A stretch of DNA of 48,863 bases from NCBI GenBank assembly GCA_016845225.1, contig JAERTB010000011.1, positions 1 through 48,863 on the forward strand, in the 5' to 3' direction. The position numbers were made by a program, and so were the translations under genes. This document shows, piece after piece, positions 32,537 through 44,457 of this stretch (positions are counted from its first letter, which is position 1; each line of letters begins with the position of its first letter). The stretch is from Candidatus Woesearchaeota archaeon (lineage in GTDB: Archaea > Nanobdellota > Nanobdellia > SCGC-AAA011-G17 > UBA489). The notes under the pieces are model-generated. The model ran no database searches. It was not told the DNA's origin and saw nothing but the letters and a program-made list of their open reading frames with translations.

Positions 32537-32782
32537 ATGGAATACAAACAATTAATTATTTCATCAGGTGATGAAAAGGGATCGTTTAGGTACAGAGTAA
32601 GGGGCGAAGAAGATGTTTATTACACAAAAGGGTTAGCAGATTTAGTTGATCAAATTAAAGATGTAAATATTGTTTACTTAATTGAAACACCTATCTACAC
32701 CAGAATAACAAGAGAAGACAAAGAAATTTTAGAGGGTCTTAGAAATAAATTAATTGAAGATGATTTAGAGTATATGGTTTAA
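32537..32782 (+). CDS. Hypothetical protein
   Basis: 81 aa intact ORF. Confidence 0.6.
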   Translation: MEYKQLIISSGDEKGSFRYRVRGEEDVYYTKGLADLVDQIKDVNIVYLIETPIYTRITREDKEILEGLRNKLIEDDLEYMV

Positions 32783-33513
32783 ACCCTAAATCTCTCTACA
32801 CACTCTTCTTCCATAAAATGCATATCTCCAGGAACAATTATGCATTGAGGTTTTTTATCGACAGAGATAGTTCCAGCACCACCATACTTAATCTCGGGTT
32901 TAGCTCCGCCTAATCCTCCACAAACAACAACCATTTCAGTACCACTCATTCCATGTTTAATTAAATAATCCAATCCATCCCTAGCAGTCATTAAATTAAA
33001 TTCTTCATTTTCATTTTTTACATCTAATAATATCAAAGTATGTAATCCCATTTTTTGATTTTCCACCATCATTTCATAAGGGCTAGAAATTCCTTCATTT
33101 TCTTTAGGAATTGTTACAACCCGGCCATATTTATACAAACTCATTCCAACAATGCCAACAGCACCCAAAATTCCTGCATTATCAATTACTTTTGATTCTA
33201 CATCCATTTCTTCTGCTCTTCTAAGAATATCTAAATGTGTTGTTGCACCCAATGGACTTCCAACAATTAACAAAGCAACATTACCTTCTCGTGCAGGCAT
33301 CAACATATCATCTTCACAATTTTTTTCAACTACATCTCTATCAGCAAAAATTATTTCCTTACCATAGAATTCTTGCATTTTTTCAATATCAAAATCAACT
33401 TGTTTACTAGTGTAGCATTCTAAAAAAACTTTATCACAACTCTTTACTGCTTCTAAACCCTTCACAGTAATATCTCTCTCATCTCCCATTCCAATACCTA
33501 TTAAGTAAAACAT
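32779..33513 (-). CDS. dphB: Diphthine synthase
   Basis: MFYLIGIGMGDERDITVKGLEAVKSCDKVFLE, ALLIVGSPLGATTH, tetrapyrrole-methylase fold Dph5. Confidence 0.96.
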   Translation of the reverse strand: MFYLIGIGMGDERDITVKGLEAVKSCDKVFLECYTSKQVDFDIEKMQEFYGKEIIFADRDVVEKNCEDDMLMPAREGNVALLIVGSPLGATTHLDILRRAEEMDVESKVIDNAGILGAVGIVGMSLYKYGRVVTIPKENEGISSPYEMMVENQKMGLHTLILLDVKNENEEFNLMTARDGLDYLIKHGMSGTEMVVVCGGLGGAKPEIKYGGAGTISVDKKPQCIIVPGDMHFMEEECVERFRV

Positions 33514-36671: not shown

Positions 36672-36702
36672 CAGAAACATTTATATAACACATATTACAA
36701 TT

Positions 36703-37251
36703 ATGTTACATATGTTACAAAAAAGTAGTATAGATAAAACAATTGAAATTTTTTATATAGATCCAGAAAAAGAATACTATTTAATGGATATAAGTAGAAA
36801 GATTAATTTAGCACATACATCTGTTAAAAAAAATCTAGCTAGATTAATACAGCTAAAATTAATAACCGAATCTTTCGAAAAAAAAGGAAAAAGAAAATTT
36901 CCAATATACAAAACAAACATAAATAACTACTTATTCAAAAAGAATAAATCAATTTATAATTTAAATTCTATACTAAATTCAAACTTAATTAAATTTTTAG
37001 AAGAAAAACTCCTACCCAAATCAATAATTTTATTTGGAAGTTATGTGCGAGGAGAAGATACAAAAGATAGTGACATAGATCTGTTTATTGAGTGCAAACA
37101 AGAAGAATTAAATTTAGAGAAATTTGAAAATAAATTAGACAGGAAAATTCAATTGCATTTTAAAGATAATTTTGATAATTATCCAAAAGAACTAAAAAAT
37201 AATATAATTAATGGGATTGTTGTTCATGGTTTTTTAGAGGGTTATAAATGA
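36703..37251 (+). CDS. wHTH-nucleotidyltransferase (MNT-like) protein
   Basis: N-terminal HTH (MDISRKINLAHTSVKKNLARLIQLKLI); ILFGSYVRGEDTKDSDIDLFIE (GSxxRG...DxD). Confidence 0.9.
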   Translation: MLHMLQKSSIDKTIEIFYIDPEKEYYLMDISRKINLAHTSVKKNLARLIQLKLITESFEKKGKRKFPIYKTNINNYLFKKNKSIYNLNSILNSNLIKFLEEKLLPKSIILFGSYVRGEDTKDSDIDLFIECKQEELNLEKFENKLDRKIQLHFKDNFDNYPKELKNNIINGIVVHGFLEGYK

Positions 37252-37649
37252 TAAGGGCAATCAAACCAGACAAAGAAAAAGCAGCATCTCTGAAAAAGAT
37301 GGCGAAGATAACATTAGAAAGATTAGAAAAAACAGACAAAATAAATTATCCTACAAATACATTAACAGATTATTATGATGTTATTCATAAATTAATGGAA
37401 TCAATAAGTTTAATCAACGGAATAAAGATAAAGGGAGAATCAGCACATAAAGAATTAATCGAATATATTTCTAGTGAACTTAGATTTAACCAACAAACTA
37501 CACAATTTCTACAACAAATGAGAGAGTATAGAAATCGCATCTCCTATGAAGGATTTATGATAAATAAGAACTATATCATGTTAAGCCAAAAACAAACAGA
37601 CAAAATAATTAAAAATCTTTTCAAAGGACTAGAAAAATGTGTGGAATAG
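37248..37649 (+). CDS. HEPN-like protein, partner of the nucleotidyltransferase
   Basis: Helical 133 aa ORF with MREYRNRISYEGF (HEPN-like C-terminal motif); 4-bp overlap with the upstream NTase. Confidence 0.7.
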   Translation: MIRAIKPDKEKAASLKKMAKITLERLEKTDKINYPTNTLTDYYDVIHKLMESISLINGIKIKGESAHKELIEYISSELRFNQQTTQFLQQMREYRNRISYEGFMINKNYIMLSQKQTDKIIKNLFKGLEKCVE

Positions 37650-39691
37650 CTGGAGCAATAAATCTAAAAAATCATAAAGAAATAACTAGCAACGCATTAA
37701 ACAAAATTCTTTACAGAGGGCTAGATAATAAAAAAATCCATTCAGGAGAAAATTTCACTTTTGCACATTGTTTGCATTCTATTGTTGGAAACAAGCCTCA
37801 ACCACTGATAAAAGGAGATTTTATCTTCGGTTCTAATTGTGAAGTTTATAATTGGAAACAACTAAAACAAAAATACAACTTAAAGTCAGAAAATGATGCA
37901 GAATTATTATTCGACTTAATACTAAAAAAACTAAACCAACCAGAACAACTAAATTCAATTCTAAAAGAAGTAAATGGAGTGTTTGCATTTTTCTTACATA
38001 ATAAAAAAGAGAACTACACATTACTAGCAAGAGATATTCTAGGAGAAAAACCCTTATGGTTCTACCATAAAGATTCATTAACATTCGCATCAGAAAGAAA
38101 AGCAATTGCAACAGAAGAAATAGAACCAGAAGAACTAAATCCTAGAAAAATAATACTTTTCAATCACAAAACAAACAAATTAACATTCTTACATCAAGAT
38201 TTCTTCAAAATAGAACCAAAAGAAATCAACAAAGAAAATTTAAAACAGTTAATAGAATCTTCAATCCTACAAAGAGTTCCAGACAAACACTTAGGAATAC
38301 TATTCTCAGGAGGCCTAGACTCAACATTATTAGCACACATTCTAACAAAAAACAAAATCAAGTTCACTGCATATATGACGATAGCAGAATCTAAAACAAA
38401 AGAAATAGAAAATGCAGAAAAAATAGCAAAAGACCTAAATTTCAAATTAAAATTAGTAAAAACAAAAAAAGAAGACATTATCAAAGAATTACCAAAAATA
38501 ATTAACTTAATTGAAACAGCAGATCCGGTTAAAGTAGAAGTAGCAACTACCTTATATTTCTCATTAAAAGAAGCTCAAAAAGACAACATCAAAGTAATTT
38601 TCTCAGGCGTTGGTGCAGATGATATTTTTGGAGGATACAAAAGAATGCATCAATCACAAAACATTACATTAGATTCTTTATCCAACCTAAGAAGAATTTA
38701 TGAAAGAGACCTTTACAGAGACGACGTTCTTTCAATGGCACACAACATAGAACTTAGATTGCCTTACTTAGACAGAGAATTAGTTCAAGCATGCCTTAAC
38801 ACTCCTGACGAACATAAAGTCTCTGAAATTCCAAAGAAATTGATGAGAGAACTATCTCAAGAATTAGGATTATCTAAAGAATTATCACAACTAAAAAGAA
38901 ATGCTGCACAATACAGTAGCGGAATAGGAAAAGTAATTTCAAAAATAGTAAAAGAAAAAAATCAATACAAAGCAGAATATTTCTCCAATATTCTAAAAAG
39001 AAAAAATCTAAAACTGGGAGCATTATTTTCTTCAGGTAAAGATAGTGTATATGCATTACACATCCAACACAGACTAAACTATGATATTTCTTGTTTAATC
39101 ACTATAGATAGCCACAACAAAGACTCTTTCATGTTTCACACTCCAACTATAGAATTAGCAAAAACTCAGGCAGAATGTTTAGAAATTCCAATTATTTTAC
39201 AAAAAACAAAGGGTGAAGAAGAAAAAGAACTAAAAGATTTAGAATTAGCATTAATAAAAGCAAAAGAAATTTATCAAATTCAAGGAATAATAACTGGTGC
39301 AATTTTCTCAAACTATCAAAGAACAAGAATAGAAGAAATTTGCGATAAAATAAATTTAAAATGTTACTCTCCATTGTGGCATATGGATCAAGAAACAGAA
39401 ATGAAAAACTTAATTCAAAAAAATTACAAATTTATTATGACTAAAGTTGCTGCAGAAGGGTTAGACAAATCATTCTTAAAAAAGATTATAACTCAAAAAG
39501 AATTAGACAAATTAGTTAAATTAAATAAAAAATTACATATTAATGTTGCAGGAGAAGGTGGTGAATTCGAAACACTAGTTTTAGATGCACCCTTGTTCAA
39601 ATCAAAACTAAAAATAGAAGAAACAGAAATCATTGAAGAAAAAGATGGTTCTGCAACACTGATTATAAAGAAAATTTCAAAATGCCAATAA
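37637..39691 (+). CDS. AsnB-like glutamine-hydrolysing synthetase fused to Dph6-like diphthine-ammonia ligase
   Basis: MCGIAGA (Ntn Cys2), LFSGGLDSTLL, SGVGADDIFGGY, LSMAHNIELRLPYLD (AsnB), then GALFSSGKDSVYAL, GAIFSNYQRTRIEEI, GEGGEFETLVLDAPLF (Dph6). Confidence 0.93.
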   Translation: MCGIAGAINLKNHKEITSNALNKILYRGLDNKKIHSGENFTFAHCLHSIVGNKPQPLIKGDFIFGSNCEVYNWKQLKQKYNLKSENDAELLFDLILKKLNQPEQLNSILKEVNGVFAFFLHNKKENYTLLARDILGEKPLWFYHKDSLTFASERKAIATEEIEPEELNPRKIILFNHKTNKLTFLHQDFFKIEPKEINKENLKQLIESSILQRVPDKHLGILFSGGLDSTLLAHILTKNKIKFTAYMTIAESKTKEIENAEKIAKDLNFKLKLVKTKKEDIIKELPKIINLIETADPVKVEVATTLYFSLKEAQKDNIKVIFSGVGADDIFGGYKRMHQSQNITLDSLSNLRRIYERDLYRDDVLSMAHNIELRLPYLDRELVQACLNTPDEHKVSEIPKKLMRELSQELGLSKELSQLKRNAAQYSSGIGKVISKIVKEKNQYKAEYFSNILKRKNLKLGALFSSGKDSVYALHIQHRLNYDISCLITIDSHNKDSFMFHTPTIELAKTQAECLEIPIILQKTKGEEEKELKDLELALIKAKEIYQIQGIITGAIFSNYQRTRIEEICDKINLKCYSPLWHMDQETEMKNLIQKNYKFIMTKVAAEGLDKSFLKKIITQKELDKLVKLNKKLHINVAGEGGEFETLVLDAPLFKSKLKIEETEIIEEKDGSATLIIKKISKCQ

Positions 39692-44095: not shown

Positions 44096-44169
44096 CATTA
44101 CTTTCTAAATCAGTCAAAGAGCATATTTAATCATTATTGTAATTAATCATCAGAACTTATAAACAAAAG
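44096..44169. repeat. 74-bp direct repeat, copy 2 (ends exactly at tRNA-Ser 3' end)
   Basis: Identical to 41611..41684; flanking bases differ on both sides. Confidence 0.97.
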
Positions 44170-44252
44170 CGCCACGACCCGGATTTGAACCGGGATGTCC
44201 AGAAGGACCTGGATTAGCAGTCCAGTGCAATACCAAGTTATGCGATCGTGGC
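44170..44252 (-). tRNA. tRNA-Ser (GCT)
   Basis: GCCACGA/TCGTGGC acceptor, CTGGA-CTGCTAA-TCCAG anticodon arm, long variable arm, CCCGG-TTCAAAT-CCGGG T-arm. Confidence 0.95.
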
Positions 44253-44296
44253 TTACTCATTTTCTTATAATCTTAATTTATAAGCGTTATCAAAAA

Positions 44297-44378
44297 CGCC
44301 GCGAGTAGGATTTGAACCTACATATCCGAAGAAATCGGTTTTCGAGACCGACGCAATACCAAGTTATGCGATCGCGGC
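44297..44378 (-). tRNA. tRNA-Ser (CGA)
   Basis: GCCGCGA/TCGCGGC acceptor, TCGGT-CTCGAAA-ACCGA anticodon arm, long variable arm, GTAGG-TTCAAAT-CCTAC T-arm. Confidence 0.95.
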
Positions 44379-44457
44379 ACGATATTTCATTCAATTGATA
44401 ATTAATAAAACTAACCAAATATTTAAATATTATTTATAATCTCTATTTAAACAAAAA

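Follow-up and report, generated by a model that had tools for sequence, protein, structure and literature searches.

We confirm that the window, by which we mean the whole 48,863-nucleotide stretch of Candidatus Woesearchaeota DNA analyzed here, carries a gene that joins an AsnB-derived module, consisting of a class II GAT (Ntn) domain and a PP-loop domain, to the diphthamide enzyme Dph6. The explanation that we favor, with about even confidence, is that a working Dph6 is tied to an AsnB-derived, ATP-using module whose substrate has changed. Starting from the domain order, Dph6 membership, residue changes and gene context that we observe, we infer the steps that follow. The C-terminal Dph6 domain would adenylate and then amidate the carboxylate of diphthine on EF2. 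The Ntn domain, where present, would free ammonia from an amide, likely that of glutamine. The middle PP-loop domain would bind ATP and probably activate a carboxylate other than that of free aspartate, and either or both of the PP-loop sites would be able to draw on the ammonia.

A fusion of an AsnB-derived module to Dph6

The fusion gene is a single open frame without an internal stop, and its start codon is right, since the catalytic Cys directly follows the ATG, as it does in relatives. Searches with Pfam matched GATase_7 at residues 53-158 (69 bits), Asn_synthase in two stretches (137 bits) and Diphthami_syn_2 at residues 459-679 (209 bits), and Pfam, NCBIfam and AlphaFold agree on the order GAT-II, Asn_synthase PP-loop and DUF71/Dph6 in one chain. 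The AlphaFold model of the full-length protein, predicted from 74 sequences, has a mean pLDDT of 94 and a pTM of 0.92, and it contains no disordered linker. In Foldseek comparisons, the GAT and PP-loop domains matched AsnB of E. coli (1ct9) and human ASNS (6gq3), with TM-scores of approximately 0.8 by target, and the Dph6 domain matched PF0828 (3rk1), with a TM-score of 0.94 by target length and an rmsd of 1.3 Å. We also considered an archaeosine enzyme of the GAT-QueC-like type and rejected it, the Pfam match to QueC being weak beside that to Asn_synthase.

Table 1. Features of the window, with positions counted from its first nucleotide.
Feature	Position	Strand	Basis
AsnB-like/Dph6 fusion gene, 684 aa	37637..39691	+	open frame; Pfam; NCBIfam; AlphaFold
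Class II GAT (Ntn) domain, aa 1-195	37637..38221	+	GATase_7; AsnB column counts; HMM alignment
AsnB-type PP-loop domain, aa 196-445	38222..38971	+	Asn_synthase in two stretches; residue alignments
Dph6 domain, aa 456-684	39002..39688	+	TIGR03679; Foldseek to 3rk1; invariant residues
Dph5 diphthine synthase gene	32779..33513	-	TIGR00522, 203.4 bits vs cut-off 114.3
Segment missing from L114, ~960 bases	36672-37633		blastn
MNT-like nucleotidyltransferase gene	36703-37251
Small partner gene	37248-37649		weak match to PADLOC candidate PDC-M05B
Tandem tRNA-Ser genes (GCT, CGA anticodons), 43 bases apart	44169-44379	-

The fusion is not peculiar to this assembly and is found again in many independent ones. 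A second Woesearchaeota MAG (L114) encodes a protein of the same length that is 90% identical to it, and among the 80 top-ranking relatives of the AsnB module from named genomes, 79 have Dph6 in the same frame and one is truncated by a contig end. One of these copies (L126) comes from a genome assembled as one contig that is 1,301,350 bases long.

Dph6 adenylates the diphthine carboxylate on EF2 and then amidates it. The archaeal Dph6 model, TIGR03679, scores 265.5 bits on the fusion, above its equivalog cut-off of 197.3, and the domain carries the motifs SSGKDS, YQ560-561, EGGE640-643 and E645. Across 74 fusions, no variation occurs at Ser465, Gly467, Lys468, Asp469, Tyr560, Gln561, Glu640, Glu643 or Glu645. 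PMC3541065 lists the counterparts of the Tyr-Gln pair and of these Glu residues at a modelled EF2 interface. Given a score above the cut-off and invariant active-site residues, the C-terminal domain can safely be assigned to Dph6 on sequence grounds. The host genome also encodes an intact Dph2 in a 331-residue frame and an aEF-2 with the diphthamide-His motif HEDAIHRGPAQ. The window's Dph5 gene lies 4.1 kb from the fusion on the opposite strand and is therefore not its operon partner. The initial annotation, which had described a 684-residue frame with an AsnB part and then a full Dph6 domain, several motifs and a Dph5 gene about 4 kb away, is thus borne out by the intact frame, by the three domains in order within one confident fold, by the recovery of every quoted motif, and by the TIGR03679 and TIGR00522 scores.

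Two other genomes, G034 (98% complete) and G152 (92%), encode an intact Dph2 with no Dph6 found; either gaps in the assemblies or an amidating enzyme of another, unknown kind may account for this. Dph2 itself is split in G004, G045, G058, G109, G116, G119, G131, G252, G265, G282, G285, G310 and others into a C-terminal gene of ~200-245 aa and an N-terminal piece of ~85-125 aa, which frequently lies on a different contig. Split Dph1/2 genes in DPANN archaea have been reported (PMC6349945, citing Narrowe 2018; PMC3655853).

The gene neighbors that are conserved around the fusions are mostly shared by a few related genomes and do not explain its function. In the window, a segment that L114 lacks, its flanks joining directly there, stands immediately before the fusion; the last gene of this cassette overlaps the fusion start by 13 nt, and the cassette resembles a toxin-antitoxin or defence pair that has been inserted there. 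A small gene of the adenylyl/cytidylyltransferase family (TIGR00125, below any specific-function cut-off) abuts the fusion at several loci, directly downstream in L141, L145, L146, L149, L159, L165, L166, L167, L179, L186, L189 and L190, and directly upstream in L117 and L187.

Residues kept and lost in the GAT and PP-loop domains

The reference set for scoring residues was E. coli AsnB plus 32 ordinary AsnB-type proteins, the majority from the same phylum; HMM alignment with 1ct9 and the human enzyme served as an independent check. Some genomes are present twice in the alignment, from two collections, and the counts given here are of rows rather than of independent genomes. The window GAT keeps Cys2, Arg27, Asn67, Glu69 and Asp87, whereas Leu46-His47 occupies the site of the glutamine-binding Arg and Cys68 that of the oxyanion Gly. 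The same pattern runs through the family. Fusions keep Cys1, Arg30, Asn74, Glu76 and Asp98 (E. coli numbering), with Cys1, Asn74, Glu76 and Asp98 present in the window protein and nearly all others. At the position of Arg49, which binds glutamine in AsnB (PMC11296641), all 104 scorable fusions have Leu, with His as the next residue in nearly every case, and all 32 ordinary AsnB proteins have Arg; the Gly75 position is Cys in 98 of 104 fusions. Since the catalytic Cys is kept together with Arg30, Asn74, Glu76 and Asp98, the Ntn domain probably releases ammonia from an amide. Glutamine is a likely but not certain donor, because the anchor for its carboxylate has changed.

In the middle domain, the window protein has an intact SGGLDS, and SGVGADD where AsnB has SGEGSDE. 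The SGGxDS residues do not vary in any row, whether of fusions (106), GAT-less fusions (11) or the PP-loop domain by itself (27). Position 348 is acidic (Asp or Glu) in 29 of the 32 ordinary AsnB rows and in none of the 106 fusions, which have Leu, Val (as in the window), Ile, Ser, Thr, Asn or Gln there. Asp351 and the Lys449 position are kept, the latter as Lys or Arg (Arg in the window); a first guess from a phmmer alignment that Lys449 had been lost was dropped when a larger alignment placed Lys or Arg there. The AsnB model TIGR01536 scores 231.3 bits on the window protein, below its equivalog cut-off of 267.1, and likewise falls short for L126 (251), L183 (260) and L105 (247), that is, for four of the four members tested; PRK09431 gives 214.7 against a cut-off of 499. 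Mean identity among fusions is 0.560 for the PP-loop domain, 0.551 for Dph6 and 0.497 for the GAT, so the PP-loop domain is about as conserved as Dph6 and the GAT is less so.

Given the loss of Arg49 and of the acidic residue at 348, together with equivalog scores below the cut-offs, we infer from sequence that the AsnB-derived module is not an ordinary asparagine synthetase. The description of this part in the initial annotation as a complete AsnB-type enzyme holds for its domains and fails for its residues. The altered-substrate reading is tempered by the ability of enzymes to compensate for the loss of Arg49 or Glu348, which is conceivable here since beta-lactam synthetase has Tyr at the Glu348 position and since a conserved His follows the lost Arg in the fusions. 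It is tempered further by the three of 32 ordinary AsnB-type rows that also lack the acidic residue.

Distribution of the module and competing explanations

Dph6 was matched in 355 of 382 genomes of the phylum. Among the best 150 matches listed, the frame length is at least 590 aa for 42, 470-535 aa for 11, 415 aa for one and at most 300 aa for 96. The long loci examined are GAT-PPL-Dph6 fusions, and those of 470-535 aa are PP-loop-Dph6 fusions without a GAT. Other arrangements also occur: a GAT-less PP-loop gene overlaps the Dph6 gene that follows it in L006, L007 and L253, L248 retains a degenerate GAT remnant, and the GAT-PPL genes of L105, L106 and L108 are unfused to Dph6. Most of the stand-alone-Dph6 genomes that we checked encode a GAT-less PP-loop gene elsewhere, and most of these genes carry the same GLGSEE-like and AAQYGS hallmarks. 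Even close relatives can lack the fusion: two members of the window's family (G185 and G332) have Dph6-like genes that are unfused and divergent, at 27-28% identity with the window's, together with a GAT-less PP-loop gene at another site. We rejected pseudogene decay of the PP-loop gene in two genomes where Dph6 is missing (G109 and G265), as the frames are intact and the stops lie outside them. No sign of the module was seen in seven genomes lacking both Dph2 and Dph6, which might hint at its co-loss with diphthamide; all seven, however, come from one reduced family (f56), and it was also absent from both members of that family checked that keep Dph6 (G118 and G210).

A PP-loop tree of 105 rows, made by a quick method and rooted on ordinary AsnB, places all fusion-type and GAT-less rows on one side of a starred branch; the order of its deeper branches is only tentative, and L264 stands out as a very long row. 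On this tree, GAT presence requires at least three changes, most GAT-less rows are grouped (support 93) inside GAT-bearing rows, and L032/L093 form a separate, starred GAT-less case. These results suggest that the GAT was lost repeatedly after the module arose and that the PP-loop domain was kept. Fusions from Methanolobus (L183) and Altiarchaeota (L192) nest among those of DPANN archaea.

The GAT-less relatives bear on a simpler explanation, in which the protein is a glutamine-dependent diphthamide synthetase whose GAT ammonia passes through a passive middle conduit and is used by Dph6 only. A glutamine-fed enzyme was already put forward in 2012 (PMC3541065), and it agrees with the retention of the GAT catalytic Cys and most glutamine contacts and with the confident folding of the full chain as a unit. 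In human ASNS, Ser362 and Glu364, the latter equivalent to Glu348, line the ammonia tunnel beside the synthetase site (PMC11615228), so a change of the Glu364 site to Leu or Val could open an ammonia route. However, the ATP loop would be expected to decay in a passive conduit, and the SGGxDS residues are invariant even in GAT-less members. There would also be nothing to conduct in the 11 GAT-less PP-loop-Dph6 fusions or in the three loci with overlapping genes, and a GAT-Dph6 protein without the middle domain was not seen among the loci typed. We consider the passive-conduit explanation unlikely, and glutamine-fed diphthamide synthesis in general stands as a possible role.

A second explanation, that the protein is bifunctional, with a true glutamine-dependent asparagine synthetase and a diphthamide-making enzyme sharing one glutaminase, draws on the gene content of the host. 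The window genome (679 kb, 98% complete) has one Dph6 gene and one Asn_synthase gene, both of which are the fusion frame. AspRS, AsnRS, GatD and GatE are encoded in one cluster, and we found no GatB of the GatCAB type, no bacterial AsnA and no other Asn_synthase in this genome. Free asparagine must therefore come from the fusion protein, an unrecognised enzyme or import, and a real asparagine synthetase would fit this genome. The retained PP-loop, Asp351 and Lys449 (Arg in the window) agree with such an activity. On the other side stand the complete absence of Arg49 and of an acidic residue at 348 from scorable fusions, and the scores below both AsnB cut-offs. The human ASNS variants E364A and E364Q are inactive with aspartate, ATP and NH4Cl (PMC6748925). 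Moreover, several genomes (e.g., G004) encode ordinary AsnB-type genes besides the fusion, and amino-acid import is possible in small symbiotic archaea, as inferred for Nst1 (PMC3655853). A shared-glutaminase bifunctional enzyme thus seems improbable, although the lack of any other asparagine synthetase in the window genome keeps it alive. In the same genome, the GatE gene of the GatD-GatE-AspRS-AsnRS cluster (L067:1465-2886, contig C16) encodes 474 aa, compared with 622-630 for the models, which match it in two stretches; the usual insert domain is seemingly missing.

An artefact of assembly or frameshift that joined two genes, a concern raised by the initial annotation for what proves to be a genome in 28 contigs, is contradicted by the same fusion, frame and order in at least 79 named genomes, including that of L126 with its single 1.30-Mb contig, and by the confident single fold, and it can be dismissed as vanishingly improbable.

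The initial annotation had interpreted the protein as glutamine-fed or as serving both asparagine and diphthamide synthesis. Its Dph6 assignment and its fusion stand; the fusion recurs widely among Dph6 homologues, and a separate AsnB, lacking in the window genome, occurs in others. The interpretation itself is weakened, because the Arg for the glutamine carboxylate and the essential acidic residue are missing in all scorable fusions and because related lineages drop the GAT and keep a PP-loop domain with an intact ATP loop. Within our favored reading of a Dph6 tied to a module of changed substrate, a bolder version may be ventured tentatively: the AsnB-derived PP-loop domain would act alongside Dph6 and carry out an ATP-dependent step of its own, on EF2 or some other translation-related carboxylate. 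It would be neither an asparagine synthetase nor a mere conduit, would work without a glutaminase, and would be separated from Dph6 in some lineages.

Comparison with known systems

In archaea, the origin of the amide nitrogen in diphthamide has been an open question. De Crécy-Lagard et al. 2012 (PMC3541065) describe a COG0367/AsnB domain N-terminal to DUF71 in Methanohalophilus mahii, Methanosalsum zhilinae and the nanohaloarchaeon Ca. Nanosalinarum J07AB56, and propose that ammonia from the GAT serves both PP-loops. Among that paper's three named reviewers, one wanted to know at which PP-loop the ammonia is consumed and what function the Asn-synthetase-like domain has. We found no later experimental test of this proposal in the searchable literature, from which subscription papers are mostly absent. 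The fusion and the ammonia idea have thus been known since 2012, and the window protein is a further member of that family. To this we add that the AsnB part has diverged at individual residues, that it is widespread in DPANN archaea and that the GAT has apparently been lost more than once. The residue changes and the GAT-less relatives turn the reviewer's question into a directly testable one. They also call for caution, as annotation of these genes as 'asparagine synthase' can mislead metabolic reconstructions of DPANN archaea, where such a gene can be the sole apparent route to asparagine, as in the window genome.

The window protein has the same domain order as the AsnB-DUF71 fusion of PMC3541065. 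It differs in being woesearchaeal, and the available text of that report does not mention the residue changes or the GAT-less relatives. The Methanolobus fusion, which we compared in place of the 2012 proteins, falls in a starred branch with DPANN fusions inside the fusion group of our quick tree, which speaks for common descent with the methanogen fusions, and shares their Leu-His pair and non-acidic residue. With AsnB (E. coli 1ct9 and human ASNS 6gq3), the window protein has in common the GAT and PP-loop fold, Cys1, Asn74, Glu76, Asp98, SGGxDS and Asp351; unlike AsnB, the fusions have Leu for Arg49, mostly Cys for Gly75, no acidic residue at 348 and equivalog scores below the cut-off. With archaeal Dph6, the diphthine-ammonia ligase (TIGR03679; PF0828, PH1257), it shares the domain, fold and active-site residues, but its Dph6 domain sits behind an AsnB-derived module rather than standing alone. 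Eukaryotic Dph6 is likewise a fusion protein, carrying C-terminal RidA/YjgF domains that have been suggested to supply ammonia (PMC3585130; PMC3541065).
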